Source: a virus. From it: 40,288 nucleotides of DNA. The position numbers were made by a program, and so were the translations under genes. Below the pieces are notes generated by a model. That model did not search any database, had not been told where the DNA came from, and saw only the letters and a program-made list of their open reading frames with translations. The stretch's first letter is position 1; each line of letters starts with the position of its first letter. Shown in pieces: positions 12,085 through 28,411 of this stretch. The stretch is from IMG/VR virus record IMGVR_UViG_3300045973_000239, positions 1 through 40,288 of that record, one strand, 5' to 3'.

Positions 12085-13956
12085 ATGCTGCCAATCACCA
12101 ACTGCCCTGATGGTTCTGGTTCGCTGAACAATCCAGCGAACATGGATAATCTCGATCCCTCCGGGATCGGAGGAACACAACTGCCGAAGAAGTATGTGGC
12201 GCCTGATCTGTGCGTGGGCGAACTGACTCTGAACACGAACGGCGATGACAAGTACCAAGAGCAGATTGCCGCTGAGAACCTGAACATCAGTGGCGCGCCG
12301 TTGAATGTGTTCAAGCTCCTTGGTGTGCATGAGCAGGGTCGACTTGTGGACATTGTTGGTAATGGCTTTGCGTTGAACGGCTCTGATGACGCATTCGATG
12401 TCCTTGCAGCAAATTGGACATCAGTCCAGACCGGGCTGAACGTGCTCACGACACCTGCTTGGATGGGCTATGACTTTGGCACAACCAAGACATCTTACGG
12501 TCAGGACGTGAATGCGCCTGGTGCTCCAGCAGCTCAGCACATCACCTCCTTCCGCATTGTGCAACCAACCCAGAACCGTCGGGCACTGCAGGTACGGGTC
12601 GAACGTAGCACTGGCACCTGCAAGGCCGGTGCTGTGCAGCTGTCAGGCGCCGGAAATGGAACAATCACCGGCTTCACCCCAGGTGCTGGTGTCATTCCGG
12701 GCACCTTCATGGTCACGATGATTGGTCCTACAACCGGCACGGTCTGGTTCACCCGCGACGCACGTGGTGTCGCCGGCGGACCTACGACCTCAGTACTGGG
12801 CGTTGCAACGGTCGGCGTCAGATTCAACTCGATGATCGGCTCCTTCACTGTTACAGCTGGCACTGCACCGTTCTCAAACGGTGATCTGTTGTCACTGCCA
12901 ATTCTTCTAGATTGGTACCGCGTCGATGTGGTCAATCTCCCTGATTCACCAGCCCCAATGCTGGTTCGCATCAAGCAGTCATCAGCGTCGCGGTTCTGGC
13001 GGCTTGTGCCTGTGTCATTCAGCGGTGCAACGACCGGCGATCCTTGGGAAGTTCAGAAGCTCGAGCTGTTTGACTACCAAGCCACGACCCTGGATGATGT
13101 ACAAGATGCGCTCTTCCTTGAGAATCGCGACCGCGACTACTCGAACACCGCTGCGACCTTCAAGGTTGCATACCAACCGTTCGATGCCATCAGCGATCTG
13201 AGCAAGTTCGGCTTCCAAGTTTCCGACATCTACTCCTTCACCACTGTCTATGCTCTCATGATCAAGGCACTCGGTCGTCCTATCGTCATTGGCGATGTGA
13301 TCGAAGTTCCAAGTGAAATGCAGTACGATCACAATCTCCGACCTGTTCGCAAGTTTCTCGAAGTGTCAGACGTGTCATGGGCTTCCGATGGATACACCAC
13401 ACAGTGGCGCCCAATCACGTTCAAATTCCAAGCGTCACAGCTTATCCCAAGTCAAGAGCACCGAGATCTGCTTGGCACGATCGACACTCAGAAGTACACG
13501 ATTGACGATGGCTCGTTCTTCGATGGCATTGAGCAAATCCAAACAGGACCATTGACAGCGTCGGAGGCAGTTGCCGCCGAAGCGCTGGCCGCTGTCCCAG
13601 AGAAGGGCACGAACATCCGTGAAGTTGCCAGCGGTATGGACCGCTTCAACACTCCGGGTTCGTATGACGGCACAGGTCCGTACGTGTCTGATGGTCTGCC
13701 GCCAGACGGTCAGGACTACATGGAAGGGTTCAAGCTTCCTGATGTGGCAAGTGCCCATGATGGCGATTTCTTCCGATTGAACTACGACCCTGCCCTGAAG
13801 ATTGGGTCGCGGTTGTACAAGTTCTCTGCCATCAAGAATCAGTGGCTCTGGGTTGAGACCGATCGTCGTTCAGAGCGTTCATCACACAAGCCATCGCAGC
13901 GTGAGATCTTCGATCATACGACCGTGATGTCAATGACTACGAAGAAGATCACATGA
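12085..13956 (+). CDS. 14: Neck protein gp14-like with a large inserted region
   Basis: This 623-residue protein shares the gp14 framework in two pieces. PKKYVAPDLCVGE (34-46) corresponds to T4 PREYVSPDLIFGE, and LSKFGFQVSDI (from 372) with the following GDVIEVPSEM segment corresponds to T4 FSKFGMQVQDE and GDLIYFP. T4 gp14 is 256 residues, and these pieces are close together there. About 320 residues (47-370) are inserted here. They include a discoidin-like stretch and a beta domain (about 205-272) that also occurs twice in this phage's tail sheath. It acts with gp13 in the neck. The stop overlaps the next ATG. Confidence 0.78.
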   Translation: MLPITNCPDGSGSLNNPANMDNLDPSGIGGTQLPKKYVAPDLCVGELTLNTNGDDKYQEQIAAENLNISGAPLNVFKLLGVHEQGRLVDIVGNGFALNGSDDAFDVLAANWTSVQTGLNVLTTPAWMGYDFGTTKTSYGQDVNAPGAPAAQHITSFRIVQPTQNRRALQVRVERSTGTCKAGAVQLSGAGNGTITGFTPGAGVIPGTFMVTMIGPTTGTVWFTRDARGVAGGPTTSVLGVATVGVRFNSMIGSFTVTAGTAPFSNGDLLSLPILLDWYRVDVVNLPDSPAPMLVRIKQSSASRFWRLVPVSFSGATTGDPWEVQKLELFDYQATTLDDVQDALFLENRDRDYSNTAATFKVAYQPFDAISDLSKFGFQVSDIYSFTTVYALMIKALGRPIVIGDVIEVPSEMQYDHNLRPVRKFLEVSDVSWASDGYTTQWRPITFKFQASQLIPSQEHRDLLGTIDTQKYTIDDGSFFDGIEQIQTGPLTASEAVAAEALAAVPEKGTNIREVASGMDRFNTPGSYDGTGPYVSDGLPPDGQDYMEGFKLPDVASAHDGDFFRLNYDPALKIGSRLYKFSAIKNQWLWVETDRRSERSSHKPSQREIFDHTTVMSMTTKKIT

Positions 13957-14579
13957 AGCTAGCTGAACTCCTCACCGAGATCGATCACGACGATGCCGTG
14001 TACAGCAAGAAGGCGTCACATCACGTCGTGTCGAAGCAACAGGTGGACAGCACATGGGCGCCTCTCATGGACGTCGACGGGTACGAGTTCGTCTGGAAGG
14101 AAGTCGGTCCTGAGTACCGAGTGATCATGAAGGACCGCGACGGTTCCGCGCTGATGCGCCTCGAGCTGAGGGTCAAGAGTGTGCAAGTTTCGGGTGGCAA
14201 GCTCCTTGGGGTCGTCACGGATTCGTTGAGCTCGCATGAGAAGATCCGCGGCACCGGCATGGCGTTGAAGATGTACCAAGCAATGGTGCAGCACGGTCAG
14301 GTCCTGTTCTCCTCGAACTCACAGACCTCTGGGTCACGGAAGCTCTGGGAACGACTGGTCGCAAGCAAGGTTGGCGAAGTGTTTGTGCTTGCTGAAGATG
14401 CTGCCGCCCGGTTTTACTTGAGGAAAGCAGGGCGTGACGGTGACTACGCCTTCAACGTACTCCTAACAGGAGACCCTGACAAACTGAACGACGAAGCGTA
14501 CGCAAGCTCTGAAACCCGTTGGGTCATCGTGCCATTCAACATGGTCGGTAATCTCAAGAAACAAGCGATTGAACTATGA
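13953..14579 (+). CDS. GNAT-like acetyltransferase with a capsid-targeting N-terminus
   Basis: This 208-residue protein has KIRGTGMALKMYQ (97-109), which resembles the acetyl-CoA loop Q/RxxGxG/A of GNAT enzymes, followed by a strand and SSNSQTSGSRKLWERL. Similar GNAT-like proteins are known to me in T4-like phages, but their substrates are not. The first nine residues, MKLAELLTE, look like a T4 capsid-targeting sequence ending in an (L/I)xE protease site. It may therefore be packaged in the head and cleaved. It lies between genes 14 and 15 with overlaps on both sides. Confidence 0.7.
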   Translation: MKLAELLTEIDHDDAVYSKKASHHVVSKQQVDSTWAPLMDVDGYEFVWKEVGPEYRVIMKDRDGSALMRLELRVKSVQVSGGKLLGVVTDSLSSHEKIRGTGMALKMYQAMVQHGQVLFSSNSQTSGSRKLWERLVASKVGEVFVLAEDAAARFYLRKAGRDGDYAFNVLLTGDPDKLNDEAYASSETRWVIVPFNMVGNLKKQAIEL

Positions 14580-15520
14580 TCCGAAACTTCTTCTATGATG
14601 CACAACTGCGGGCGTACATGCTGCAGTTCGTGACGATCTTCCAGGGTCTCCAAGTCCAGACCGGCAAGGGTGAGTGCGACGAAGAGCAGTTCATCTCCGT
14701 GCCGTGCGTTGTCGGGACAAAGGACCGTGTCGTTGCTGCGATCTTCGCTGGGAACACGCAGAACCGAACCTTCAGCCTGCCAATGATGGCGGTGCATCTC
14801 CAAGGTATTGAGCCAGCACCTGAACGTCGCAAGGTCCAAGCGTATGTCGATCAACGGGTCACGCTGCCAGTTGGCGGTGTCTTCCCGAACGATCTGACAG
14901 TCGTGAAGCGAGCCATGCCAGTGCCGTACAACACCACAATGGAACTCAGCATTTACGCGTCGAACACGCAGCAGATGCATCAGATCCTCGAGCAGATCCT
15001 CGTGCTCTTCAATCCTGATCTGCAGATCCAGAAAAGCGATGCCCCGTTCGACTGGACGAAGATCACGAAGGTTGAGCTGACCGACATCTCGAACGAAGAG
15101 AACTACCCATCTGCCACCGAGAAGCGTATCATCACCTGGACACTGACGTTCGCGATGCCAATCTACCTGAGCATCCCGATGGGCGTCAAGGACGACTTGG
15201 TCCGCAAGATCATCATCCAGATCGGCACTGGCGACTACGAAACGGTGGTCGAGGTTGGTGAAGATGGCGAGGTCCAGCCATTCGGTCCGCCAGTGGCTCG
15301 GATGGAGGTAGACACACAGGACCAGCCGATCCTAACGCAGGCCGATTGTACATACCAAACGGATGACCTCCCAGCAGCACCGGCAATTGGCGACACTTGG
15401 TGGCGCTCAGCTCTTGGCCGAGCAACGCATTGGAATGGCGTTGAATGGGCCGATACCGCTCAATACAAGAAGCCACCAACAGGGCCTATTCCGCCTGAAC
15501 CTATCAATCGAGCGTACTGA
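14576..15520 (+). CDS. 15: Tail sheath stabiliser and completion protein gp15
   Basis: This 314-residue homologue of T4 gp15 (272 residues) forms a ring at the head-proximal end of the tail, which binds the neck and caps the sheath. Matching regions include the N-terminal FFYDAQLRAYMLQF, YNTTMELSIYASNTQQMHQI (about 121-140; T4 MIYELSIFTRYEDDMFQI) and KRIITWTLTFAMPIYL. The last ~60 residues add a TWWRSALGRATHWNGVEW unit like those in the gp13-like protein. Position next to 13 and 14 fits. The ATG overlaps the upstream stop. Confidence 0.88.
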   Translation: MIRNFFYDAQLRAYMLQFVTIFQGLQVQTGKGECDEEQFISVPCVVGTKDRVVAAIFAGNTQNRTFSLPMMAVHLQGIEPAPERRKVQAYVDQRVTLPVGGVFPNDLTVVKRAMPVPYNTTMELSIYASNTQQMHQILEQILVLFNPDLQIQKSDAPFDWTKITKVELTDISNEENYPSATEKRIITWTLTFAMPIYLSIPMGVKDDLVRKIIIQIGTGDYETVVEVGEDGEVQPFGPPVARMEVDTQDQPILTQADCTYQTDDLPAAPAIGDTWWRSALGRATHWNGVEWADTAQYKKPPTGPIPPEPINRAY

Positions 15521-17067
15521 TGATCACCTTCAAAGAATACCTCACGGAAGTTCGCATGAGTGCGAAGGCGTACGCGCACTCGTTCAAGCGCAACGAAGAC
15601 TCGGCGAAGATCGGTTTCGAACTCGAGGTGTTCGTACCGGAGGGTACATTCTACCATCAGGAACCGGATACCCAGGCGCCTGCAACACGGTTGGTGTCAG
15701 ACATGACCACCTACCGTGATATCGAGTCGCACTTCAAAATTTCGAATGCCCAGGAAGCGGTGATCGACAGAGATTTCGGAGACTGGAAGGCAGAAAAGGA
15801 AGACGCCTGGGTAGATGAAAACTGGCAATCGTATGAAGATGAAGATGACGGGAAGCAAGCTGAGACGAAGGCACGCTCGAGGGCATTGAAGCGCATCACG
15901 AACACGTTCACATGGGACATGTGGGTCAAGTCAGCTTACGCTGGGAAGATGATCGACTTCATTGAGAAGTACGAGCTGGAACCGGAATACGGCTGGGCTG
16001 ATGACACCTCAATCAACACGAGCGACGGTCTCAGCGCTGGGTACTATAACGGCTACAAGAAGACGGCGAAGGGTATGGCCGAGCATCTGCAACGGCAGCT
16101 CGGCGTTCCATTCCGTGTCGACGCTCAGGGATACGCCACTTGGAACCTCTATCACGATACCTCCATCAAGGACAAGGACGGCAAGTCGGACGAAGAAGGT
16201 CAGGCTGGGGTTGGGGTCGAACTCGTGTCGCCACCACTGCCACCGTCAGAGGCGATGAAGCAGCTCGAGGCGGTGCTGAAGGTGCTTGATCACTACGACA
16301 TCGAAACGAACGAGAGCACCGGCATTCACGTGAACATCTCACTCGAGAACATGGAGCACTTTGATCCGCTGAAGCTGGTGCTGTTCATGGGCGATCAGCA
16401 CGTCCTCAAGAAGTTCGATAGAGCTGCGAACTCATTCACGAACTCACAGATGCGTGTGGTGATGGACAGCATCTCGGCGAACGGAAAGCTACCACGTTCA
16501 GCCTCTGAGCTGATTGCACTCGGCAAGGAAGGTCTCGCCGAGACTGGCAAGTACTACTCCGTGAACCTGTCGCATCTTCCGAAGTACCTCGAGTTTCGTG
16601 CCGCTGGCGGCGCCGATTACCACAAGCGAGTTGGTGACATCCGCGAGGTAACTGGACGCTGGCTCCGGGCAATGGAAATCGCGTGCAATCCAGACATGCA
16701 CAAATCAGAGTACCTCAAGAAGGTCATGCAACTGTTGAACCCATCACACGAAGATGCTGAGCGCACGAAAGCAATGTCACTCGAACAGCTGGTCTTCAAG
16801 GCAGATGGCATGTTCGCCTGGCAGCACTTGCACGATGTCATCGAGAACCAGTCAGAGGACAAGAGCAAGAAGACCAAGGCGATGATGGCTATGATGCTGA
16901 CGATCGCCGACACCATTGACGAGTTCCCGCCGACCTTCCCTCAGAAGAAGGAAATGCGGCAGCTCATGCAGAAAGTCGGCGCCAGTGGCCGGGAGGTGGC
17001 GGACAAAGCGTCTGAAGCGCAGCGCGCCGAGGTCGAAAAATCGCTCCGGGCGTTCTCGCTCCTGTAA
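15520..17067 (+). CDS. Amidoligase-like ATP-grasp family enzyme with a capsid-targeting N-terminus
   Basis: This 515-residue protein has the signatures of the amidoligase family (glutamine synthetase/ATP-grasp-related enzymes that join a carboxylate to an amine): IGFELEVFV (31-39), GVELVSPPLPPSEAM (near 230), STGIHVNIS (266-274, with H270) and YLEFRAAGG (356-364, with E358 and R360). Family members are thought to modify peptides, proteins or cell-wall precursors. The first ten residues, MITFKEYLTE, resemble a T4 capsid-targeting sequence, so it may be packaged and injected. The ATG shares a base with the gp15 stop. Substrate unknown. Confidence 0.75.
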   Translation: MITFKEYLTEVRMSAKAYAHSFKRNEDSAKIGFELEVFVPEGTFYHQEPDTQAPATRLVSDMTTYRDIESHFKISNAQEAVIDRDFGDWKAEKEDAWVDENWQSYEDEDDGKQAETKARSRALKRITNTFTWDMWVKSAYAGKMIDFIEKYELEPEYGWADDTSINTSDGLSAGYYNGYKKTAKGMAEHLQRQLGVPFRVDAQGYATWNLYHDTSIKDKDGKSDEEGQAGVGVELVSPPLPPSEAMKQLEAVLKVLDHYDIETNESTGIHVNISLENMEHFDPLKLVLFMGDQHVLKKFDRAANSFTNSQMRVVMDSISANGKLPRSASELIALGKEGLAETGKYYSVNLSHLPKYLEFRAAGGADYHKRVGDIREVTGRWLRAMEIACNPDMHKSEYLKKVMQLLNPSHEDAERTKAMSLEQLVFKADGMFAWQHLHDVIENQSEDKSKKTKAMMAMMLTIADTIDEFPPTFPQKKEMRQLMQKVGASGREVADKASEAQRAEVEKSLRAFSLL

Positions 17068-17103
17068 AACACCCGCATTCTCGGCTTACCGCCCGGCACT
17101 GTT

Positions 17104-17110
17104 CTAAATA
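17104..17110 (+). promoter_or_regulatory. Late promoter CTAAATA for the sheath gene
   Basis: CTAAATA precedes the tail sheath ATG by 54 bases. The leader carries a strong ribosome site (AGGAG, 17154-17158). Confidence 0.8.
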
Positions 17111-17164
17111 CCCTGAGCAAACCCAAGCGGCCATCCTAGACGGCCCAAACAGTAGGAGTACAAC

Positions 17165-19033
17165 ATGGCAACCCTCGTCTCCCCAGGCGTATCGGTCTCA
17201 GTCATCAACGAGAGTTTCTTCTTCCCGGTAGTCGCACCAACGCTGCCGGTCTTCTTCATCGCCACCCGCGCCGGCAAGACTCAGGTTGATGGAGTCACCC
17301 CAGCAGCAGGCACTCTTGAGCACGACATCGTGCGCACCGTCACGAGCATCTCACAGTCGCTCGAGTTGTACGGTGTTCCATACTTCCGCAATGACGCTTC
17401 GGGCAATGAGTTCCACGGCGATGCACGGAATGAGTATGGTCTGCTTGCACTGAACCAGTTCCTCGGCACTGGCAACCGTGCGTACGTCATCCGCGCTGGC
17501 ATCGATCTCGACGACGAAGTTCCTGAGTCGTTCATCAGCCTTGGCACCCCATCGCTGGTCGGCGCCGTCACATACTCGGCATCGAACGTCGGCAACAGCA
17601 CCCTTGCGTCGATCACTTGCGCTGGCACCTATGTCAAGCCACAGATCTTCACCGTGACTTTCACTGGTCCAAGCACATTCTCCGTGCGCGGTTCCATCTC
17701 TGGTTACGAAGGCGCCGGCACTGTTGGTATCGCTTTCACGAGCAATCGCGTGAACTTCACGGTGACCGCTGGTTCAACGTCGAATGCGGCTGGTGACGTC
17801 ATCACCTTCTCAGTTGGCTACCACGCTACGTTCACTGGCACGACTCTGACTCACGTCACTGCAGGCGCTGGCCAACCGTCGAGCCTCGTTGCTGACACGC
17901 TGGCTGTTGCTGAAGTGTGGACCATCGCAATGACCTCGGCCACTGCCTTCTCGGTCACTGGTTCTGTTTCTGGTGTTCAGGCAACTGGCACCGTTGGCGC
18001 TCCGTACGACAACAACCGCATCAACTTCATTCTGAACGCTGGCACCATCCCATTCGTGGCAGGTGATACCTTCACGGTCACAGCAACGACTACCACCGTG
18101 GTTGATCCGCTTGGTGCCAATGATGCTGCTCGCCGTGTTGCAATCACGACCGCTCTTCAAGCGACTGTGAACAGCAATGTGGACGTTCGTTCTCCGCTGT
18201 ATGAGTTCAACCTGTGCGCTTGCCCAGGGTACTGGGAACTTGCCGATGAACTCACCGCTCTCTGCGTGGACGTCAAGGAAGAAGCCATCGTCATCGCTGA
18301 CACCCCATGCGATAAGACACCGGATCAGATCGCAACGTGGAGCCTGACTTCAGATCGCGTTCGCAACAACCTGACGGCGTACTACTACCCATGGTGCCTG
18401 ACCTCGAACCTCGACGGTCGCAACGTTCTCGGTGCTCCATCAGGCACAGTGCTCCGCACCATCGCGTACTCTGACCAACAGAGCTACGTGTGGATGGCAC
18501 CAGCTGGTGCAAACCGTGGTATCGTCACTGGCGCTTCGAAGGTTGGCTACGTCACTGGCACGCTCGGTGCAGCAACCACGTTCGTGGAAGCGAATCTGAA
18601 CGACGGTCAGCGCGACAATCTGTACGAGTACGACAAGAATCTGAACCCAATCGTGTTCTTCCCAGGTCGTGGCATCTTGATCTGGGGTCAGAAGACCTCG
18701 GCTCCAGTCGCATCGGCAATGGACCGTGTGAATGTGGTTCGTCTCGTAGCGTATCTCCGTCGCATGCTCCGCAAGGGCGCTGTTCCGTTCGTGTTTGAAC
18801 CGAACGACCAGATCACTCGTGACAATCTGAAGTCAGCTGCCGATGGCATGCTGGCCGATGTGCTGTCAAAGCGCGGGCTGTACGACTTCGCAACGCTTTG
18901 CGATGGCACGAACAACACGGCAACTCGCATTGACCGGAACGAGCTGTGGTTGGATGTCGCTATCAAGCCTGTCAAGGCAGCGGAATTCATCTACATCCCA
19001 ATCCGCGTTGTGTCCACTGGCGCTGACATCTAA
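17165..19033 (+). CDS. 18: Tail sheath protein gp18
   Basis: This 622-residue contractile sheath protein begins with VSPGVSVSVINES, like the SPGIEL start of T4 gp18. Its C-terminal half matches T4 closely: YVWMAPAGANRGIVTGASKV, DRVNVVRLVAYLRRML, and NNTATRIDRNELWLDVAI. Residues about 159-308 hold two copies of a surface beta domain (TVTFTGPSTFSVRGSISG... and TIAMTSATAFSVTGSVSG...), which are probably displayed outside. One related copy sits in the gp14-like protein. It is late expressed and followed by a terminator, then the tube gene. Confidence 0.96.
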   Translation: MATLVSPGVSVSVINESFFFPVVAPTLPVFFIATRAGKTQVDGVTPAAGTLEHDIVRTVTSISQSLELYGVPYFRNDASGNEFHGDARNEYGLLALNQFLGTGNRAYVIRAGIDLDDEVPESFISLGTPSLVGAVTYSASNVGNSTLASITCAGTYVKPQIFTVTFTGPSTFSVRGSISGYEGAGTVGIAFTSNRVNFTVTAGSTSNAAGDVITFSVGYHATFTGTTLTHVTAGAGQPSSLVADTLAVAEVWTIAMTSATAFSVTGSVSGVQATGTVGAPYDNNRINFILNAGTIPFVAGDTFTVTATTTTVVDPLGANDAARRVAITTALQATVNSNVDVRSPLYEFNLCACPGYWELADELTALCVDVKEEAIVIADTPCDKTPDQIATWSLTSDRVRNNLTAYYYPWCLTSNLDGRNVLGAPSGTVLRTIAYSDQQSYVWMAPAGANRGIVTGASKVGYVTGTLGAATTFVEANLNDGQRDNLYEYDKNLNPIVFFPGRGILIWGQKTSAPVASAMDRVNVVRLVAYLRRMLRKGAVPFVFEPNDQITRDNLKSAADGMLADVLSKRGLYDFATLCDGTNNTATRIDRNELWLDVAIKPVKAAEFIYIPIRVVSTGADI

Positions 19034-19050
19034 GGTTCAGCGCTCCAATG

Positions 19051-19076
19051 AGAGGGACTTCGGTCCCTCTTTGCGT
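19051..19076 (+). terminator. Terminator after the sheath gene
   Basis: AGAGGGAC (19051-19058) pairs with GTCCCTCT (19063-19070) around TTCG, followed by TTGCGTTT. Confidence 0.8.
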
Positions 19077-19114
19077 TTCCGGGCTCGCCGGCAACAAGTA
19101 AACCCTGCTGCAGT

Positions 19115-19121
19115 GTAAATA
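19115..19121 (+). promoter_or_regulatory. Late promoter GTAAATA for the tube gene
   Basis: GTAAATA lies 32 bases before the tube ATG, which has a strong AAGGAG site. Confidence 0.75.
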
Positions 19122-19153
19122 GGACGACGCCCATCGATCCATAAGGAGACCTC

Positions 19154-19747: not shown

Positions 19748-19768
19748 TTTTCCGCACTCTGATGCAAG

Positions 19769-19786
19769 AAGGACCTACGGGTCCTT
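19769..19786 (+). terminator. Terminator after the tube gene
   Basis: AAGGACC (19769-19775) pairs with GGTCCTT (19780-19786) around TACG. It overlaps a spurious upstream start for the next gene. Confidence 0.75.
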
Positions 19787-19827: not shown

Positions 19828-21570
19828 ATGCTCACCTTCTCATCATTCCTCGCCGAAGCGGAATTCTCCGAAGACAACTTCGGCCGTCTCATCTCCGCTT
19901 TCGAAAAGCGGATGCCAAAGCTCCTTGGTTCGCAACTCTACCGTCTCGGCGGTTCCAGTGGCGTTGAGAAGCTCTCTGGTGCAACTGGCTACGTGTACTT
20001 CATCGGCAGCACGGGCAAGGCGTTCCGTGTTCGTGCCAAGGGCGGCCACGTCATTGGTCTCGACATCTGGAAGGAGTACCACCCGAACAAGGGTCCTGCT
20101 TTCGTTGCCGACATGGCGGACATCAGCGCTGGTTCCATCATCGCTGCCATGAGCAAGATTGCTGCGATCATCAAGAACCCGAGCGCCGGCGAAATTGAAG
20201 TGCCGTTGCGCGAAGATCTGCAGCTCGATGAGATGGCAAAGCGCACGACCCCAGCCGACTTCTACAAGCTCATGGTCGACAAGTACGGTGAAGAAGCCGC
20301 GCAAAGCGCCTCGAACGAACAGATCAAGTCGATCGCTGCTGAGCACGACATCCTGATTCCAAGTTTCATTTGGGGCACTGGCATCGGCAAGGGTCGTACT
20401 GCAAAGTTCAACACGAAGCCAGGTGGTTCCAAGGCAGCAGCTGATGAGCCAAAGGGCGATGCACCAGCTCCAAAGGACGAGCCAAAGGGCGACGCTCCAA
20501 AGGACGAACCGAAGGCCGACAAGCCTGTTGATTCTGTCAAGGTCCAGCCTACTGGCAAGAAGGATCCAATCCTGTACATCAAGGTCACGGCTCAGGATCC
20601 TGACAGCAAGCGGTTCATCTCTGCTGCTGACAACGCTGCAGCTCAGAAGCTGTATGCTCAGCTCTCGAAGTCGGTGAATGGTCCAGGCACTGAAGCCGAA
20701 ATGAAAGACCCCGACACGCTGTACGGTCACATGGCACAGCTTGTGTCGATGGCATGTAAGGGCACGCTCCGTTCGCTGCTCATCTACGGCGGCCCAGGCA
20801 CTGGCAAGACGTTCACCATCATGAAGACGGTGAACGACATGGGCATGGTCAAGGGCACCGACTACGTCAAGCTCTCGGGCAAGGCTTCGCCAATCGAAAT
20901 CTACAAGACTCTCTACATGTACCGCGAAAGCGGTCTGGTGATCTTCGACGACTTGGACAGCATGTGGCGCAATGAGGATGCGACGAACATCCTGAAGGCT
21001 GCACTCGACACGTCACCTGTTCGTGAAATCTCATGGGTGTCGAACCAGACGATCAACGTCTCGAAGATGGACGACGCTCGCAAGGCGACGCTGTTCCGCC
21101 AGATCGACGCTCAGTTGAACGGCGAGGTGGAAGCTCCACCACCGGAAGATGACGATGAAGAAGATCCAGATGCTGACGCAACCGTCAAGCGCAAGAAGAA
21201 GAAGAAGGACGAAGCCCCGACCATTGATCCGACGAAGATCAAGTACCCGTCTACGTTCGACTTCAAGGGCCGTGTTGTGTTCATCTCGAACCTGAAGAAG
21301 GAAGACTTCGACACAGCCATCATGTCACGCTCTGCCAAGATCAACATGGACCTGAGTCCATCGCAGATCCTTGAACGGATGCGCAAGATTCTTCCCACTC
21401 TTGGGGGAACCGATGTATCGGTAGAGCAGAAGGAAGAACTGCTCGATCACCTGCTCCATCTGCACCAGCAGAAGGAGATCACGGCGGTCACGATGCGTGA
21501 GTTTACCAAGGGTCTCGATATTGTTCGTTCCGGTGCTCCAAACTGGAAAGAACTCGTGATCTACGCTTGA
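19828..21570 (+). CDS. AAA+ ATPase with a predicted capsid-targeting N-terminus
   Basis: This 580-residue protein starts with MLTFSSFLAE, which fits a capsid-targeting sequence. Residues 135-200 (EMAKRTTPADFYKLMV...GKGRTAKF) form a module that also occurs in the large protein at 26067. A Lys/Asp/Pro-rich linker (about 205-240) follows. The ATPase domain has Walker A GGPGTGKT (321-328, K327), Walker B IFDDLDS (D374, D375) and a sensor strand VVFISN. An acidic-basic insert (EEDPDAD, then KRKKKKK) lies near 445-465. It would remodel a protein or nucleic acid using ATP; the target is unknown. An upstream start at 19762 precedes the late promoter and is rejected. Confidence 0.87.
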   Translation: MLTFSSFLAEAEFSEDNFGRLISAFEKRMPKLLGSQLYRLGGSSGVEKLSGATGYVYFIGSTGKAFRVRAKGGHVIGLDIWKEYHPNKGPAFVADMADISAGSIIAAMSKIAAIIKNPSAGEIEVPLREDLQLDEMAKRTTPADFYKLMVDKYGEEAAQSASNEQIKSIAAEHDILIPSFIWGTGIGKGRTAKFNTKPGGSKAAADEPKGDAPAPKDEPKGDAPKDEPKADKPVDSVKVQPTGKKDPILYIKVTAQDPDSKRFISAADNAAAQKLYAQLSKSVNGPGTEAEMKDPDTLYGHMAQLVSMACKGTLRSLLIYGGPGTGKTFTIMKTVNDMGMVKGTDYVKLSGKASPIEIYKTLYMYRESGLVIFDDLDSMWRNEDATNILKAALDTSPVREISWVSNQTINVSKMDDARKATLFRQIDAQLNGEVEAPPPEDDDEEDPDADATVKRKKKKKDEAPTIDPTKIKYPSTFDFKGRVVFISNLKKEDFDTAIMSRSAKINMDLSPSQILERMRKILPTLGGTDVSVEQKEELLDHLLHLHQQKEITAVTMREFTKGLDIVRSGAPNWKELVIYA

Positions 21571-21592
21571 TCGAAACTACCAAGGAACAACT

Positions 21593-21772
21593 ATGCTCAT
21601 CCAAGAACTCCTAGCACTTCGCGAAGCCACGATCGACCAGGCCCTCAGCGACAAACTTGACCAGAAGGCAGGCGGCGCCGATGAGGTTACGTTGAACGGG
21701 AAGAAGTACGTCCGTACCGGTCCAAAGAACGCAATTAGCCAGCCAGGCCCATGGCGTCTAGCACGCGGGTAA
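21593..21772 (+). CDS. Small predicted capsid-cargo protein (59 aa)
   Basis: This short gene follows the AAA+ gene by 22 bases with a good ribosome site (AAGGAAC). The first 11 residues, MLIQELLALRE, resemble the capsid-targeting and cleavage sequences of its neighbours. If cut after LRE it would leave a 48-residue peptide. Residues 33-45 (VTLNGKKYVRTGP) are beta-like and basic. No family is recognised. It is comparable in size to small internal proteins of T4, but that function is inferred. Confidence 0.6.
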   Translation: MLIQELLALREATIDQALSDKLDQKAGGADEVTLNGKKYVRTGPKNAISQPGPWRLARG

Positions 21773-21777
21773 TGTGA

Positions 21778-21802
21778 TACAATTCGGGTACGCCAACCCG
21801 AA
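21778..21802 (+). promoter_or_regulatory. Promoter with a downstream inverted repeat
   Basis: TACAAT (21778-21783) lies 27 bases before the next ATG. TTCGGGT (21783-21789) and ACCCGAA (21796-21802) form a perfect inverted repeat covering the expected start site, a likely operator or 5' hairpin. Confidence 0.6.
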
Positions 21803-21810
21803 GGACCACT

Positions 21811-22119
21811 ATGAAGCTCATCGACGTCACCACTCGGAATGCCAAGGAACTCGCAACCATGAAGCGCAAGGTCGCTGCCTGGTTGAAGGCGCACAAGAAC
21901 GGCTGCAACATTGGTGATACGACTTGGGAGGTGGCAGCCGACGGCAAGACCTATCTGCTCCAAGTCGACAATGATGGTCAGCTCGGCCAGGACCTCGATG
22001 ACATCATCAAGAACTCAGCGAGCACCAAGAACATCAGCGTCAAGGAGTACAAGGGCTCCTACGACTGGGCATCGGATACCTACGCTCGCCCGGCCTCCGT
22101 GGTGTCATTCACGTTCTGA
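21811..22119 (+). CDS. Hypothetical protein (102 aa)
   Basis: This small soluble protein has a basic N-terminal helix (8-30) and a beta-rich middle (TWEVAADGKTYLLQVDND, about 38-55). No family is recognised. It has its own non-late promoter inside the late block, and a terminator follows, so it forms a single-gene unit. The start context AAGGACCACTATG is shared with neighbouring genes. Confidence 0.7.
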   Translation: MKLIDVTTRNAKELATMKRKVAAWLKAHKNGCNIGDTTWEVAADGKTYLLQVDNDGQLGQDLDDIIKNSASTKNISVKEYKGSYDWASDTYARPASVVSFTF

Positions 22120-22137
22120 GTCAATAGAACCTATCAA

Positions 22138-22161
22138 CCTAGGGACCTGAGGGTCCCTAGG
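22138..22161 (+). terminator. Terminator hairpin, 10-bp stem
   Basis: CCTAGGGACC (22138-22147) pairs perfectly with GGTCCCTAGG (22152-22161) around TGAG. Confidence 0.78.
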
Positions 22162-22196
22162 GCGTTTCTGGTGCAAGCGGGATACGCACGGGGAGA

Positions 22197-22203
22197 CTAA
22201 ATA
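22197..22203 (+). promoter_or_regulatory. Late promoter CTAAATA
   Basis: CTAAATA lies 22 bases before the ATG at 22226. GAACC (22206-22210) and GGTTC (22218-22222) could form a small hairpin in the leader. Confidence 0.75.
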
Positions 22204-22225
22204 GAGAACCAACTAACGGTTCCTC

Positions 22226-23485
22226 ATGGCAGACATCAAGCAACTTCTCAACGTCGGTGGCATCAACACCGAGCGCGTCGCGACCGAACTGTTCGGGAAC
22301 GCGGTGGAGGACTTTGCGGCCGGACCCCTGAACAAGGTGCTGAAGGACGCATTCGGTCAGCCTGAAACGACAACTGTCAATCGTAACGACGGCTCGTGGT
22401 ATGCCACGTCGTACGCAGCCAGCATCGCTGATTCGCAGTTCCGTCCAAAGCTCAAGTTCCTATTCCGAGTTGAGTTCCTCTTCAAGCCTGAGGTGCTTGC
22501 CATGTTCGGCCAGGAAACAGCAACCTGGGCCAAGAACTTCGCGTTCCTCATTCGCTCAGTCGACCGTCCAAAGGTCGACTTCGACTACGATGAAGTGAAC
22601 ATGTACAACTTCAGGACCAAGGTGCTGAAGCAGATCAAACACCGTGCTCTGACGATGACCTTCATGGATGACGTTGGCAACAGCGTACATGAGTTCTTCA
22701 GGTTCATGATGATGGTGCACTCACCAATCACGCGCCGGTCCATTGGATCGAGCACCGACATCGCGTCAGCTGTTGCGCACTACAACACTGGCTCAGGGAT
22801 GTTGTTCTCAGATTCGCCAACCGCGATCACCGACTTTGCGCACCGTGGTGTCATCAACACTGACATTGGTACCGCCATCCAAGCGATCAAGATCACGCAG
22901 TTGTTCATGCAACCAGGTGGCAAGAATGATCTCGAAACCGGTGCCAAGGAAGTGTCATTCTTCTTTGTGAACCCTCGCATTGAGTCATTCGATTTGGATG
23001 ACGTGGCACATGATGTGAACGACATCAGCCTCCTAACGATGCAGTTCGACTACGACTTTCTGTTGATGTCCGACATGCAGACGCTGCAGCCACTGGATGC
23101 CAGCAAAGCAATGCCGCCAGTTGGCAGCGCCCCAGGTGAAGCGTCAGGCGTGAACCGCACAGCAAACGCGAAGAGCCCAGAGGGCGAGAACAATCCGTAC
23201 CTCAAGACCCTGTCGGCTCTTGGTGGTCGTGCCGCAACGAAGCTCACGAACGAAGTGCTCGGCAAGTACATTCGACAGGTACCAGGACTCGGCAGTGTTG
23301 CCGATACCATTGGTGGTCTCGTTGGAAAAGGCGTCAGCGGTAGCATTGGTTCAGCAGGTGCATCAGTCGGGACTGGCATCAATCAAGCTTTTGCGGCTCC
23401 GACACGCGATGTCGTCACGGACACCAGCACAGTTGGCAGTGATCAAGCGACGGCGATCGTTGGTCGTCCACGTGGAGGTGGCTAA
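22226..23485 (+). CDS. Baseplate/tail-tube junction protein, gp54/gp48-like
   Basis: This 419-residue protein has the layout of tail-tube-fold baseplate proteins. It contains a strand pair KFLFRVEFLF (about 74-83), FLIRSVDRPKVDFDYDEVNM (about 107-126), a central LTMTFMDDVGNSVHEFF helix region, and a later FDYDFLLM strand. T4 gp54 (320 residues), which starts tube polymerisation, shows the same order and a similar Gly/Leu-rich C-terminal tail. It is late expressed and followed by gp4. The similarity is at pattern level, so gp48 or another tube-like protein is possible. Confidence 0.6.
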   Translation: MADIKQLLNVGGINTERVATELFGNAVEDFAAGPLNKVLKDAFGQPETTTVNRNDGSWYATSYAASIADSQFRPKLKFLFRVEFLFKPEVLAMFGQETATWAKNFAFLIRSVDRPKVDFDYDEVNMYNFRTKVLKQIKHRALTMTFMDDVGNSVHEFFRFMMMVHSPITRRSIGSSTDIASAVAHYNTGSGMLFSDSPTAITDFAHRGVINTDIGTAIQAIKITQLFMQPGGKNDLETGAKEVSFFFVNPRIESFDLDDVAHDVNDISLLTMQFDYDFLLMSDMQTLQPLDASKAMPPVGSAPGEASGVNRTANAKSPEGENNPYLKTLSALGGRAATKLTNEVLGKYIRQVPGLGSVADTIGGLVGKGVSGSIGSAGASVGTGINQAFAAPTRDVVTDTSTVGSDQATAIVGRPRGGG

Positions 23486-23937
23486 TGGCAGCGCAACGCG
23501 GTTCTAACAAAGGGCGCTTCATTCCAAAGCACCCAGAGAAGTACCTTGGCGATCCATCGCGGATCATCTTCCGATCATCCTGGGAAATCCGACTGTTCCA
23601 GTGGCTCGACTCAACTCCAGCTGTGATGCAGTGGGCGAGTGAGGAGTTTTCGGTTCCGTATTTGTCACCAGTCGACAATCGTGTCCATCAGTACTATCCC
23701 GATGCCTTGGTGATCTACAAGGACAAGTACGGGAACGTGCAGAAGGAGATTGTTGAGGTCAAACCATACAAGGAGACCGTTTTGACACCCAAGTCAACGG
23801 ATCGCGATAAGTATGCTTTGATGATCAACGAAGCGAAGTGGAAAGCAGCAGCTGCTTTCGCAACGCAGCAAGGCATGAAGTTCCGCGTCATCACTGAGAA
23901 ATCGATGTTCGCGAACGGCCAAACCCGAAAGAAGTGA
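23485..23937 (+). CDS. 4: Head completion protein gp4
   Basis: This 150-residue protein is close in size to T4 gp4, which finishes packaged heads before tail joining. GRFIPKHPEKYLGDP (10-24), IIFRSSWEIRLFQWLD (27-42) and WASEEFSVPYLSP (50-62) are family signatures. A PD-(D/E)xK-like nuclease core is visible: P72-D73, then E91-V-K93. The ATG overlaps the upstream stop, and the next gene overlaps its own stop. Recognised with high confidence; nuclease activity is inferred. Confidence 0.9.
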   Translation: MAAQRGSNKGRFIPKHPEKYLGDPSRIIFRSSWEIRLFQWLDSTPAVMQWASEEFSVPYLSPVDNRVHQYYPDALVIYKDKYGNVQKEIVEVKPYKETVLTPKSTDRDKYALMINEAKWKAAAAFATQQGMKFRVITEKSMFANGQTRKK

Positions 23938-25100
23938 TGATTACCTTCAAAGAGTTCCTCTTCGAATCCAAGGAGATCGCCGTCGATGATGTTCGGCCGC
24001 TGTCGCCTGTGGAGGAGAAGCGCGCTGCTGATGCTGCTGTAATCTTCATGAAGGCACACGAGCTGTTGGAGCTCAACAAGCGGAGCTTCACACTGGAGCA
24101 CATCACTGAGTTCCGTGATGTCCTGCTTAAGCACGGCAAGGCCTTCAAGTTCTCTCAGGAGATCCTCGAGCGGCTCGATGATACGTTGGCCGTGCACCAG
24201 AAGATGGTAGCCTCGGCTGAGAAGCTCAAGCAGCATCGCCCTGCCATCTCCCATCACACTGCAAGCCTCAAGGACGCGTTCATGTCTGGCGACCGAGCAG
24301 CTATGCGCAAGCACAAGGCTGAGTTGGATGCCAAGCTCGCTGACATCGATCACAACATCGACGCTCCAGCAACTGGGCGTCGCACCATTGAGCGTGTCTT
24401 CTCAGAATCGCCATCGATCTTCGGTTCAAATCGGTTGCTGCGATACATCGGCGCCGATCAGTACAAGCACGTCAAGGCACTTGACTTCTCACAGACGCTG
24501 TACACCACGAACGACTTCCCGCACGGTAAGACTGACGACTTCGACTACGTGCTGCATTTCCTGCTGCAGCTGAGCTATTCGCCGAAGCCGCGTCGTGTCA
24601 CTGATGCCAGCGACTTCCGTACAGGAAGCAAGGTGCGGTACGCGAATGACGGCAAGTTCGACAAGCTCATGAAGCTCACTGATCAGTACCTGCACAACAA
24701 TGACAAGACCCTGATCCCAGAAATCAAGGCCCTGATCGACTCCATTCCCGAAATCAAGCGCGCGAACGACAAGGCAAAGCTTAAGATCAAGAAGGTCTAT
24801 CGTGGCATTGGGCTCGGTGAGAATATGTCATCATCGCATGCCGCCATTGAGCGTGAAGAGCGTCGTCAGCGGTACGTCGCAACCAGCGATTCACGGTATG
24901 CAGCCAAGAACTTTGCGCTGCAGAAGGGTCACTTGGAGAGCGAAGACAGCCGTCGCTCTGAAGTGGGTGTCATCATCACGTACTTGGTGACGCCAGCGGC
25001 CATTCTCTTCGACACCCGTGTCATCGATACGGCCTACAACGAATCTGAAATCTTGATTGACGCCACGAAGGCGTCGATTGAGGACATCGAGGAAATCTGA
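23937..25100 (+). CDS. Alt-like ADP-ribosyltransferase with a capsid-targeting N-terminus
   Basis: This 387-residue protein starts with MITFKEFLFE, which matches the T4 capsid-targeting pattern with an LFE cleavage site. Residues 20-270 are helical. The C-terminal ~110 residues carry the R-S-E signature of mono-ADP-ribosyltransferases: KVYRGIG (R289), RYVATSDSRYAAKNFA (S317) and YNESEILID (E369-x-E371). T4 Alt is packaged, injected and modifies host RNA polymerase, so an equivalent role is likely, but the target cannot be read here. I chose ATG at 23937; GTG at 23934 is in frame. The stop shares a base with the next start. Confidence 0.82.
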   Translation: MITFKEFLFESKEIAVDDVRPLSPVEEKRAADAAVIFMKAHELLELNKRSFTLEHITEFRDVLLKHGKAFKFSQEILERLDDTLAVHQKMVASAEKLKQHRPAISHHTASLKDAFMSGDRAAMRKHKAELDAKLADIDHNIDAPATGRRTIERVFSESPSIFGSNRLLRYIGADQYKHVKALDFSQTLYTTNDFPHGKTDDFDYVLHFLLQLSYSPKPRRVTDASDFRTGSKVRYANDGKFDKLMKLTDQYLHNNDKTLIPEIKALIDSIPEIKRANDKAKLKIKKVYRGIGLGENMSSSHAAIEREERRQRYVATSDSRYAAKNFALQKGHLESEDSRRSEVGVIITYLVTPAAILFDTRVIDTAYNESEILIDATKASIEDIEEI

Positions 25101-25603
25101 TGAGCAGCGAAAACAAGGCAATCAAGGTCAGCACTGATGGTTCAACCAGCAGCGGTCTCGTGACGCTCTATCCAAGCGACAGCCAATTCACGATGCGTCT
25201 TCCAGGTGTTCCAACCGAGATTCGGTACGAGCTGCCAGATGGCATGGAGTTTGGCTACGAGCTGTACTTCAAGTACTCACGGATGCTCGAGCCGCAGTTC
25301 GATCAGATTGAGAAGAAGTTCGGCAAGGAAGGCTTCGCGGTCTACAAGAAGTATCGGAGCTCTCTCGTCAAGCGCCTGTACAAGGACTCTGGCGACATCG
25401 GTGACGCTGAGTTCAAGGAAGATGTCTCTGAACTGATTGAGCACTTCACTACTCTCTTGAAGGCAAAGCTCATCGAATTCGTGGCTACGAAGCATGAAGC
25501 GACAGTGGCTGAGATGGAGAAGAACATGCTGGAAGTCAAGGCTGAACTCGAGCACATTATTGAGACTGGCGTGGAGAATGTACATGTTGAAGACGATGAA
25601 TAA
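25100..25603 (+). CDS. Hypothetical late protein (167 aa)
   Basis: Residues 20-55 are beta-like (RLPGVPTEIRYELPDGMEF) and the rest is helical, with a probable coiled coil at 125-155. No family is recognised. It lies between the ADP-ribosyltransferase and the probable small terminase, overlapping both, so they share one message. A baseplate-hub or packaging role would suit the position but is not shown. Confidence 0.7.
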   Translation: MSSENKAIKVSTDGSTSSGLVTLYPSDSQFTMRLPGVPTEIRYELPDGMEFGYELYFKYSRMLEPQFDQIEKKFGKEGFAVYKKYRSSLVKRLYKDSGDIGDAEFKEDVSELIEHFTTLLKAKLIEFVATKHEATVAEMEKNMLEVKAELEHIIETGVENVHVEDDE

Positions 25604-26033
25604 TCCACTCGACGAGCTGTTCGACGTTGAGGGCAGCGATCGGAACGAGATGGTCGAGTACGATCAGGTCTCGGAGCAGGAAGTGGCCGCGATGGCTGCT
25701 CCTGTCGACACGCCAAAAGATGCAGAGGACATTGAGGTCGATCGCAAGATCGACGCCGTGTACGACGCAGCTCTTGAAACCTTCCAGAATCAGATGGCGT
25801 ACACCGAGATCATTGAGCCTCGGTACGCAGCTCGGAACGCCGAAGTGGCGGCGAGTTATCTGAACATCGCACTCCAGGCTGCTGCAACTCGTGCCCGTGT
25901 CAAGGGCGATCGAAAGCGTGCTGGTCAGTTCATCCCAGGGATGGGCGGCAAGGTCACGAACAACACGATCGTCGCAACTCGAGAGGAAATCATGCGGATG
26001 ATCTCAGTTGACGCGGACACCAAGGAAGTCTGA
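25584..26033 (+). CDS. 16: Probable small terminase subunit, gp16-like
   Basis: This 149-residue, mostly helical acidic protein is close in size to T4 gp16 (164 residues). It follows the same plan: an acidic N-terminal region (LDELFDVEG), a central helical hairpin (about 58-110) ending in a PRYAARNAEV segment, and a C-terminal NNTIVATREEIMRMI that resembles gp16 NATVFMGSPTELMDEI. Small terminase recognises DNA and stimulates gp17. ATG at 25584 has GGAG at 25572-25575; ATG at 25596 is an alternative. Identity is based on pattern and length. Confidence 0.6.
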   Translation: MLKTMNNPLDELFDVEGSDRNEMVEYDQVSEQEVAAMAAPVDTPKDAEDIEVDRKIDAVYDAALETFQNQMAYTEIIEPRYAARNAEVAASYLNIALQAAATRARVKGDRKRAGQFIPGMGGKVTNNTIVATREEIMRMISVDADTKEV

Positions 26034-26038
26034 GCCGC

Positions 26039-26045
26039 CTAAATA
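26039..26045 (+). promoter_or_regulatory. Late promoter CTAAATA
   Basis: CTAAATA lies 21 bases before the ATG at 26067. Confidence 0.75.
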
Positions 26046-26066
26046 GCGAACAACATCGGAACCACT

Positions 26067-27947
26067 ATGAAGAAGTCACTCCTCCAACTCATCGCCGAAG
26101 CCGACGACACCGCGGTGAACGACAAGCCAAAGAAGAAGTTCACCGTCACCGTCACCGACGCGGATGGGAATGAAGTTCAGAAGACGGCAATGGCGTACAA
26201 CATCGGCGACATCAAGGCGTATTGGGCGTCTGGTGCCCGTCCTGATGAAACCTTCGTCAAGGCAGACCTGCATGACGAAGAGGTTGGTGAACCACCGGCT
26301 GACGATGCAGATGCACCAGTTGATGACACTGCAACGGATGACGCTGATGCAGCGCCAACTGACGACATGACAGCTGATGATCTGCCACCTGGTGATGAAC
26401 CAGATGCTGATGAAGCGCCAGTTGATGATGAAGCAGCTGCTGAACCAGATGCTGATGACGAAGAGCTCGACGACGAAGGCAAGCCAAAAAAGAAGGCTCC
26501 GAAGAAGGAACCGAAGGGCGATGCTGCAGCAGCCGATGCCATGGCGGCTGTCGATGAAGACAAGAAGAAGGACTTCGATCAGCAACGCGTTCTGTACGGC
26601 GCCATGAGCAAGAAGGAGTTCGACGCCAAGTGGAACAAGCCTGAGCCAATGAGCAAGCAAGCGAAGGCCATGGCCGGTCCAGGTGGGTTGTACAAGAACC
26701 TCATCACCGGTGTTCCGGGCGCTGATCGTAAGGCTCAGCCTGCAAAGAAGCTCCCGGCCGCAAAGGCAGTGCCAGCATCGACGAAGGATCCGAAGTACAA
26801 GCCAGCTGTGAAGCACTCTGGCGTTGAGAAGGTCGGACTCAGCAAGCTTGAGAGCTTTGCCGCAACAGGTCCAGCGCTCACCGAAGGTTATTCCGAAGAT
26901 GACATCGCCATTGGCGGTACTGTGATCTACAAGTCTGGCAAGGGCTACAAGTTCTCAAAGGCCAAGAGCAAGAGCTACGACAACGTGAAGCTTGTGAACG
27001 GTGATTCCATCGCGATGGGCGCAGTAGTGTCGACTGACTTCTCTGACTGGAAGCAGTTCAAGGACAAGCAGATCAAGGAGAGCATCGTCACTGAGATGGC
27101 GAAGCGCTCGACTCCAGCCGACTTCTACAAGATGGTCGTCGCGGTGCATGGTGCCAAGGGTGCCGAGAGCGTCTCATGGGCAGACATCAAGGCAGTCGCC
27201 GACAAGAATGATGTGCTAATCCCTGTGTACATTCGTGACCAGAAGGTCGCACGTGGCCGTTGGACTGCAAAGCCAAAGGACATGAATGCTCCAGCACATG
27301 AACCGTCGATCGAGAAGAAGGTCGCTCCGGGTGATGTGAACACTACCCTGTATGGTCCAAAGGACGCACCGAAGACTGTTGCTCCAGCTGCGAAGGCTGC
27401 TCATGCGGCCGTCAAGGACGAGCCGAAGGGCATGGAGTATAAGGAACACTACAAGAAGGAAGACTTCCCTGATGTCGAGTTCGCTTGGACGACCACGTAC
27501 CACAGCGGCAATGACCTGCTGGTGGCTATCGAGAAGCACCATGGCGTGAAGCCAGAGGACACGAAGCGCCTTGAGGTCGACAAGCGTGACAACTACTACA
27601 TCGTCAAGAAGGGCACCATGGACGTGCTTGGACGTGTAACCGTCACCGATGGCGGCATCCAACCAGGTCGTGGTCGCGTTGCATACGTCGAAGGCAACAT
27701 CGCCATCTCAGCCAAGGCCAAGAAGGACCGTGACGAGAACCTGTACGGATTCTGGGTGAAGCCACAGCATGGCAAGGCGCACGTTTCGGTTGGTACCCAG
27801 CACAGCCACGGCCCTTGGAGCAAGTTCTCTGCCGAGGCAAATGTTCGCGACAAGTACCAGCACTACGAGTACGACGATGAGTTTGGTCATGGCACTATCA
27901 GTGTTGTGAAGGTCAAGAAGGTCAACGGTCAGTGGGAGCGAGCATGA
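26067..27947 (+). CDS. Large acidic predicted capsid-cargo protein (626 aa)
   Basis: No catalytic family is recognised. MKKSLLQLIAE (1-11) fits a capsid-targeting sequence. Residues 75-135 are an Asp/Ala/Pro/Glu-rich repeat region, probably unstructured. A Lys/Ala-rich section follows (about 135-260). Residues 343-408 (EMAKRSTPADFYKMVV...GRWTAKP) repeat the module found in the AAA+ ATPase. The C-terminal part (about 450-626) is beta-rich with many His, Tyr and Lys. The mixture of strong acidic and basic segments could help package it with DNA. It overlaps the next gene (ATGA). Confidence 0.8.
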   Translation: MKKSLLQLIAEADDTAVNDKPKKKFTVTVTDADGNEVQKTAMAYNIGDIKAYWASGARPDETFVKADLHDEEVGEPPADDADAPVDDTATDDADAAPTDDMTADDLPPGDEPDADEAPVDDEAAAEPDADDEELDDEGKPKKKAPKKEPKGDAAAADAMAAVDEDKKKDFDQQRVLYGAMSKKEFDAKWNKPEPMSKQAKAMAGPGGLYKNLITGVPGADRKAQPAKKLPAAKAVPASTKDPKYKPAVKHSGVEKVGLSKLESFAATGPALTEGYSEDDIAIGGTVIYKSGKGYKFSKAKSKSYDNVKLVNGDSIAMGAVVSTDFSDWKQFKDKQIKESIVTEMAKRSTPADFYKMVVAVHGAKGAESVSWADIKAVADKNDVLIPVYIRDQKVARGRWTAKPKDMNAPAHEPSIEKKVAPGDVNTTLYGPKDAPKTVAPAAKAAHAAVKDEPKGMEYKEHYKKEDFPDVEFAWTTTYHSGNDLLVAIEKHHGVKPEDTKRLEVDKRDNYYIVKKGTMDVLGRVTVTDGGIQPGRGRVAYVEGNIAISAKAKKDRDENLYGFWVKPQHGKAHVSVGTQHSHGPWSKFSAEANVRDKYQHYEYDDEFGHGTISVVKVKKVNGQWERA

Positions 27948-28411
27948 AGCCATACAAGATGAGCATCCCATCGCTCAAGCCACGGGATCCTAATCAAGGG
28001 GTGCTTGCCTCCAAGAGGAATGCCGGCGGTCCAATGCGCGACAAGAAGCGTGATCAGGAGCGTGGCATCACGAAGCACAAGGGCAAGATGACGTTCAAGG
28101 AGTTCCTCGAGGACGACTTCGACGAAGAGCTGACCGAAGCCAAGAGCACGCACAAAGACGGTGACATCGTCAAGCCGCACAAGTACACAGCCAAGATCCT
28201 GAAGAAGGGTGCTGACAAGAAGTGGCCAACGCTGAAGGGTGAGATCTACGAAGGCGACGTGCTCATTGGCACGTTCTCTCGTGGTGCGGTGCAAGACCAC
28301 ATCATCCCACCGATCGAGTACAAGTTCCGTTCAAGCCAAGCCAAGGCCCGGTTTGACGACTTCGCTGACAGCCTGTCGATCGAGGAAGCCATTGAAGCTC
28401 TGCTTCCATGA
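27944..28411 (+). CDS. Hypothetical protein with an internal capsid-targeting-like segment (155 aa)
   Basis: The first 48 residues are very basic and Arg/Lys/Pro rich (KPRDPNQGV, RDKKRDQERGITKHKGK). They are followed by an internal Met49 starting MTFKEFLEDDFDEELTE, which resembles the N-termini of the cargo proteins and ends in an LTE site. The remainder is a small alpha/beta segment. Met49 (28088) is preceded by AAGGG, so a shorter second product is possible. The start overlaps the previous stop; its stop overlaps the next ATG. Function unknown. Confidence 0.7.
   Translation: MKPYKMSIPSLKPRDPNQGVLASKRNAGGPMRDKKRDQERGITKHKGKMTFKEFLEDDFDEELTEAKSTHKDGDIVKPHKYTAKILKKGADKKWPTLKGEIYEGDVLIGTFSRGAVQDHIIPPIEYKFRSSQAKARFDDFADSLSIEEAIEALLP

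Follow-up and report, generated by a model that had tools for sequence, protein, structure and literature searches.

T4 internal proteins and the present locus

In bacteriophage T4, the targeting of internal proteins to the head, their cleavage by gp21 and their exit with the DNA are established, as described in the available parts of two papers (PMC9026906, PMC12373910). For one of these proteins, IPIII, the first 10 residues suffice for packaging, residues 4 and 7 accounting for most of the targeting and residues 8 and 10 for processing (PMC9026906), and in T-even phages unrelated injected proteins have a common leader by which ip genes have been found (PMC12373910). Here we describe IMG/VR record IMGVR_UViG_3300045973_000239, a 40,288-base fragment of an uncultured virus (the window) whose first gene is gp23 and in which several unrelated predicted proteins begin with short N-termini of a similar kind. 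A preliminary description had proposed that six such proteins, each starting with a segment that ends in (L/I)xE, are loaded into the capsid and delivered with the DNA. Our comparisons make it probable that these short N-termini are T4-type capsid-targeting and cleavage tags reused on many cargo enzymes.

The comparison with T4 that accompanied this proposal is borne out by the T4 record, where IPII and IPIII begin MKTYQEFIAE and IPI begins MKTFKEF. Within T4 stretches totalling about 51 kilobases (kb) and picked for head genes, no open reading frames (ORFs) of at least 60 amino acids (aa) other than those of IPII and IPIII have the exact register. Like three of the window proteins, they have a 10-residue start with aromatic residues at positions 4 and 7, I8 or L8, and E10, and they place unrelated cargo behind one leader. 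The T4 proteins IPI-III are small and inhibit type IV restriction enzymes (PMC12373910, available part), whereas the tagged proteins here reach 580 aa, include several predicted enzymes and form paralogue arrays. Virion-delivered ADP-ribosyltransferases (ARTs) have also been proposed for many phages; according to the available part of the source, head-packaged ARTs and polyvalent effectors of myoviruses are inferred from gene context and from fusions to MuF, portal and other head proteins, not from a short tag (PMC9503650).

Three unrelated proteins in the T4 register

All six N-termini are encoded where they had been placed, at 13953, 15520, 19828, 21593, 23937 and 26067, and an (L/I)xE processing site ends the tag in 6/6. 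Three of them match the T4 internal proteins at all four positions:

15520..17067, + strand: Amidoligase_2 protein, 515 aa, strict tag MITFKEYLTE at 15520-15549 (PF12224, E 1.5e-12)
19828..21570, + strand: AAA+ protein, 580 aa, strict tag MLTFSSFLAE at 19828-19857 (PF00004, E 4.3e-5; phrog_1250)
23937..25100, + strand: ART-like protein by motifs, 387 aa, strict tag MITFKEFLFE at 23937-23966

The amidoligase call stands, with 48.4 bits against a PF12224 cut-off of 22, as does the AAA+ call through its PF00004 match. The starts at 19828 and 23937 sit inside longer ORFs and were preferred to an ATG at 19762 and a GTG at 23934, respectively; relatives of both proteins carry the tag at the place matching the chosen start.

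Chance occurrence was evaluated over 53 window genes, with starts chosen in this analysis, against a background of 10,163 internal protein positions. The T4-register motif M..[FYW]..[FYW][LI].E is found at three window gene starts, those of this trio, and at 0/10,163 internal positions, which places the three tags far beyond chance; the 9-11-residue form of the aromatic tag likewise gives three window starts against 0.047 expected (P = 1.6e-5). The loose motif M.{4,8}[LI].E, closer to the shared start as originally proposed, is present at 7/53 gene starts against 2.54 expected (488/10,163 internal positions; P = 0.013). This enrichment is mild and weak by itself, and one of the seven starts belongs to a neck protein at 10180 (MASSNLTE) that was absent from the earlier list.

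Conservation on orthologues

Comparison loci were viral, fetched around the sheath gene, and comprised the best 80 of 383. Amidoligase relatives occur in 18 loci, with the tag on 16/16 of those having a visible N-terminus, and the AAA+ protein is tagged in 11/11 loci; both counts include three near-identical phages (L011, L012, L040). In the alignment of 15 amidoligases, that of the window included, L8 and E10 are invariant, 11 sequences have the strict T4 register and four have shorter forms (MKLDVLFE, MKIQYLFE, MKLVKLQE, MKFKDYLNE); mean conservation is 0.74 in the tag compared with 0.44 overall. Among the 11 strict tags, position 9 is occupied by seven different residues, and the fixed L8 is written with four different codons, synonymous codons varying. 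The AAA+ alignment (n = 10) contains seven sequences in the strict register, with F4, E10 and A11 invariant.

Reuse of the tag across viral loci

The 80 loci together with the window yielded a first tagged set of 113 proteins, which fell into 34 clusters when compared without their first 14 residues. The expression used for this set also permitted L in place of either aromatic residue, and a few members resemble spurious ORFs; the aromatic form is present in 103/113 proteins and 28/34 clusters. Scanning viral contigs with a DNA pattern for MITFK(E/Q)F(L/F)xE returned at least 119 stretches, with 118 new loci among the matches listed. These loci hold 133 pattern matches, of which 132 are no more than 65 codons downstream of an in-frame stop (for one of them the frame runs to the locus edge, not to a stop) and one is at 77.

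From the first set and 79 new loci, 161 unique proteins of at least 60 aa with a 9-11-residue tag formed 50 clusters (first 14 residues removed, E 1e-3), an upper bound on the number of families because short or fast-evolving relatives may miss each other. The exact 10-residue register is found in 126/161. Residues 4, 7, 8 and 10 of this set were fixed by how the proteins were selected, and residues 2-6 partly so; outside the selection, position 9 is variable and position 11 is usually A, G, E or S. Families were recognised for cargo such as the amidoligase, the AAA+ protein, a Zeta_toxin/AAA_33 protein (L017:18894), and CTP_transf_like and ART-PolyVal proteins, the last two over their cut-offs; HAD and GNAT matches among the cargo fall below theirs. 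Three long relatives carry the 9-11-residue tag at 3, 18 and 4 starts versus 0.29, 0.44 and 0.62 expected, a large excess being seen in G014 only.

A family of tagged proteins of about 400 aa, starting MITFKQFLLEGG(V/A)AGHM(A/D)HPFD(L/I)P, turns up repeatedly in the contigs of the pattern scan (L170, L218, L219, L232 and others). Its L218 member had no informative Pfam match, and the first 75 residues of one family protein had no match in the phage collection.

ART-like proteins and arrays

The putative ADP-ribosyltransferase label given to 23937 rests on R-S-E-type sequence motifs; Pfam and PDB searches gave no match. VYRG, YVATS and NESEI are invariant in four aligned sequences, two of them identical, and relatives keep the modified tags KQTFKQFNE and KQTFKLFLE; the structure model is poor, with a predicted local distance difference test (pLDDT) score of 53. 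T4 Alt offers a parallel as a head-packaged ART with a short cleaved N-terminal propeptide (MELITE..., PMC9026906, available part). Unlike that of 23937, the Alt start has no aromatic pair, and hhalign of the 23937 alignment with Alt showed no relation (probability 0.3%).

The largest cluster of the first tagged set has 42 members in 10 loci. ART-like paralogues number nine in L025, seven in L009, six in L013, and five each in L017 and L035, many of them consecutive. In array half A2 (13 sequences), the RG strand and a late E are invariant; in A1 (18 sequences), the E is invariant and RG is present in 15, absent in two, with one sequence truncated. Such a pattern would be expected of ARTs, some array members being possibly inactive. 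One array paralogue was modelled well (pLDDT 85.8), and Foldseek with this model gave no match at E 0.001 or better. The best rows from VIA-align were 2aua, a protein of unknown function (Z 6.4), and the NAD-bound ART 7dn9 (Z 3.1), and PDB sequence searches with A1, A2 and A3 returned nothing meaningful. Motifs and model together suggest that the array paralogues are likely ARTs, an identity left unproven by the Foldseek result and by Z scores of only 6.4 and 3.1. Pfam searches on ten tagged proteins of related loci found no ART family. The tagged protein L008:13968 matches PF18760 (ART-PolyVal, E 2.3e-8) and in this respect is like the myovirus polyvalent effectors.

The jumbo phage Atu_ph07 contains 10 consecutive genes (39484-49507) with the start M(R/K)W..L(T/N/I)E and YRG-type bodies, followed by a GNAT-like gene that starts MRLFQLLE. 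These resemble the arrays of the related loci in their tagged starts and YRG-type bodies and differ in their shorter tag (W3, E8); the amidoligase homologue of this phage starts MRWQDISSKKLTE. Counted back from gp70, the array corresponds to gp53-gp63, within coding sequences 31-76. Virions were found to contain 29 proteins of that range (PMC6102473), which may include array members.

Virion data from a cultured phage

A study of cyanophage S-SM1 found 41 proteins in purified virions, one of them a cytidylyltransferase of cluster T4-GC190 (PMC3037559, available part). The gene SSM1_190, marked GC 190 in its record, begins MKKFSAFLNE-A and is the only S-SM1 ORF of at least 60 aa in the exact register in the 164 of 174 kb scanned; the scan left out 50001-59999, which holds the start of the virion protein T4-GC969. 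A 9-11-residue match at 101675 falls inside the gnd gene.

Genes with weaker tags

Four further window genes bear candidate looser or internal forms of the tag:

13953..14579, + strand: GNAT-like protein, 208 aa, MKLAELLTE at 13953-13979 as candidate tag, Pfam giving no family above its cut-off
21593..21772, + strand: 59-aa ORF starting MLIQELLALRE, weak candidate, no homologue in the 80 loci and no family
26067..27947, + strand: 626-aa protein, MKKSLLQLIAE at 26067-26099, weak candidate with the LxE site only
27944..28411, + strand: 155-aa protein, internal tag-like MTFKEFLEDDFDEELTE at 28088-28138

Relatives of the GNAT-like protein occur in five loci: the matching ORF is tagged in four, and L018 has a tagged short ORF just upstream. 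The window protein starts MKLAELLTE-IDHDD and its L004 relative MITFKQFLAE-IDHDD, the two being 54% identical overall. Because the pair differ before a common IDHDD, strict and loose forms substitute for one another on this protein; the L004 form does have aromatic residues at 4 and 7. As a basis for the GNAT call there is one motif, HEKIRGTGMA, which we take to be acetyl-CoA-loop-like, while Pfam gave no GNAT family at E 0.1; a viral scan with this protein returned no relative. Among the three loose-rule genes, sequence comparison gives good support to 13953 only, and for it capsid targeting is likely.

For the 59-aa and 626-aa genes, capsid targeting is possible. MLIQELLALRE resembles the starts of two genes lying between gp21 and gp22 in a relative, G003 (MKHLQELLFLSE, MKLLQEMLALVE). 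Homology of the 626-aa protein is limited to residues ~330-546, partly with a module of AAA+ proteins, and its L002 relative begins with a different LxE form, MKFLKSITE. The 626-aa and AAA+ proteins of the window have the module MAKR(S/T)TPADFYK in common; in L005:20668 this module directly follows the start MKTLQALLE.

The internal tag-like segment reported for the 27944 gene is present, from 28088. The homologue in L006 has LTFKEYLMVE at the equivalent place, without the Met, and that in L011 has SFKQFMEA; no tag-like internal segment was found in the homologues of L002, L005 and L239. Because of the missing Met and these absences, the segment may be a chance remnant, a site of internal cleavage, or a second start that only this phage has.

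Genomic surroundings and head machinery

PHROGs assigned to the window a T4-like set of gp23, neck, sheath stabiliser, sheath, tube and head closure. Two genes frame the capsid and the lineage:

150..1421, + strand: gp23 major capsid protein, candidate propeptide site LME39 (phrog_138, E 2.1e-86)
30227..31762, + strand: gp17 large terminase, lineage marker, best matches to jumbo phages XacN1 (40% identity) and Atu_ph07 (38%)

Megablast of the 10-30 kb portion of the window against phages gave no match, and no host is named, as an amidoligase profile search of genome contigs found no relative. By eye, the window gp23 has LLE and LME sites ahead of its shell domain. In three relatives (G003, G007, G014), LxE sites likewise precede the shell domain of the capsid protein, and several lie in the preceding scaffold-like protein.

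The fragment yielded no match to the S77 protease (gp21-type). PF03420 (S77, gp21) matched 19/28 chosen related records, 18 of them over the cut-off, and eight of the nine records with no match are shorter than 80 kb. In the same three relatives, the S77 protease and a scaffold-like gene adjoin gp23, and beside it lies what, by its features, we presume to be the portal gene. A second, weaker S77-like match besides gp21 was seen at L100 (G010:C1:104156-104566; 24.5 bits, below cut-off).

The window protein at 28608-29195 combines an N-terminal part, a linker with an LTE site (GEALTEDEQ) and DUF5856 (PF19174); the DUF5856 part occurs as a shorter ORF of ~126 aa in several relatives, and the linker is a possible internal cleavage site. 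A single exact TATAAATA, which we take to be the core of the T4-type late promoter, lies at 29603-29610, directly upstream of the 29615 gene, with a chance expectation of 0.02. With one copy in the window and none in L025, such sites are too few to place the tagged genes in late operons. The window also holds one tRNA-Glu gene (ctc) at 37262-37351 on the minus strand, together with what look by motif, presumably, like a cation-efflux protein (3312-4211) and an acyl carrier protein (4333-4578). In the T4 record, an ATG within the annotated uvsW frame (L102:18211) opens a 76-aa reading with the near-tag MLLEFKQFLYE-A.

Weighing the interpretations

If the tag acts as in T4, residues 4 and 7 would dock the cargo on the immature head's scaffold core and thereby have it built into the prohead; a gp21-type S77 protease would then cut after E10 and free the enzyme, which would stay among the packaged DNA and enter the host with it. 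By analogy, the amidoligase, the AAA+ protein, the ART-like protein and probably the GNAT-like protein of the window may follow this route and act early on host targets. The cargo-loading proposal of the preliminary description holds best for the strict T4 register, found on three unrelated proteins, kept on their orthologues and reused widely, whereas 13953, 21593 and 26067 fit the loose rule only.

Several observations weigh against capsid targeting. The starts MKLAELLTE, MLIQELLALRE and MKKSLLQLIAE have no aromatic pair at positions 4 and 7, and the AAA+ tag, with a mean conservation of 0.66, is no more conserved than the whole protein (0.68). The window proteins are known from their genes alone, and packaging, cleavage and injection are predictions. 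Moreover, gp21, scaffold and portal lie outside the 40-kb fragment, because it begins at gp23 and the relatives have these genes beside gp23. S-SM1 is a single case, and since 41 of its 234 genes were detected in virions, the presence of SSM1_190 would arise by chance about once in six. T4-GC15, also an S-SM1 virion protein, has no tag, which is expected if the tag marks head cargo only and lends no support either; the cytidylyltransferase homologue of HTVC008M starts MKTLKELLRKK, without the tag residues. In phage CBB (554 predicted genes), the strict tag was found in 0/189 genes examined, in three stretches. LxE starts occur there in 6/31 virion proteins versus 15/158 others (P = 0.10, not significant), which makes the loose rule a poor predictor of virion presence.

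The position of the tagged genes, interspersed with the neck, sheath, tube, head-closure and terminase genes of the window, keeps targeting to another part of the particle as a rival: the tag might direct proteins to the neck, tail tube or baseplate for a structural or tail-delivered role. We regard this as improbable, given that the tag shares its register with the T4 head signal, that the sheath and tube genes themselves have no tag, and that tagged genes in G014 also lie far from the sheath gene, at ~30, 63 and 252 kb (in unannotated surroundings). Still less probable is that the common start serves translation or N-terminal stability in this phage group and plays no part in packaging. The tag is indeed very short and sits at the start codon, and some tagged genes have, by eye, no clear ribosome-binding site, so translational coupling is possible. 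However, the residues are kept while the codons vary, as the four codons for L8 in the strict amidoligase tags illustrate; neighbouring structural genes have no strict form; and a fixed E10 beside a free position 9 suits a protease site.

To read the pattern as weak LxE matches brought together by chance is, in our estimate, the least credible of these alternatives. About 2.5 loose matches are expected in the window, a neck protein is among those seen, and comparison gives no separate support to the tags of the 59-aa and 626-aa genes, but chance fails to account for the three strict tags. Capsid targeting with cleavage therefore remains the reading we favour.

Implications for T4-like phages

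The principle is known from T4; what is new here is that the exact register also occurs on large enzymes and on ART-like arrays of jumbo and environmental T4-like phages. Among literature titles and the opening lines of abstracts, we found no published description of such tags on diverse enzymes or arrays. We lean, with reasonable but not strong confidence, towards a wider reading, namely that, across the T4 superfamily, the T4-type 10-residue head-loading signal serves as a general code for delivery, that many environmental and jumbo phages have a large set of injected enzymes whose members can be swapped, and that the N-terminus predicts much of the virion-delivered effector repertoire. Under that reading, and with the same confidence, the injected set would comprise ART-like arrays, amidoligases, AAA+ proteins, cytidylyltransferases, P-loop kinases and phosphatases.

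Jumbo T4-like phages contain many genes of no known function. If this reading is true, a short N-terminal code would turn many of them into candidate injected enzymes for host takeover or counter-defence, and the few internal proteins of T4 would represent the small end of a much larger system.

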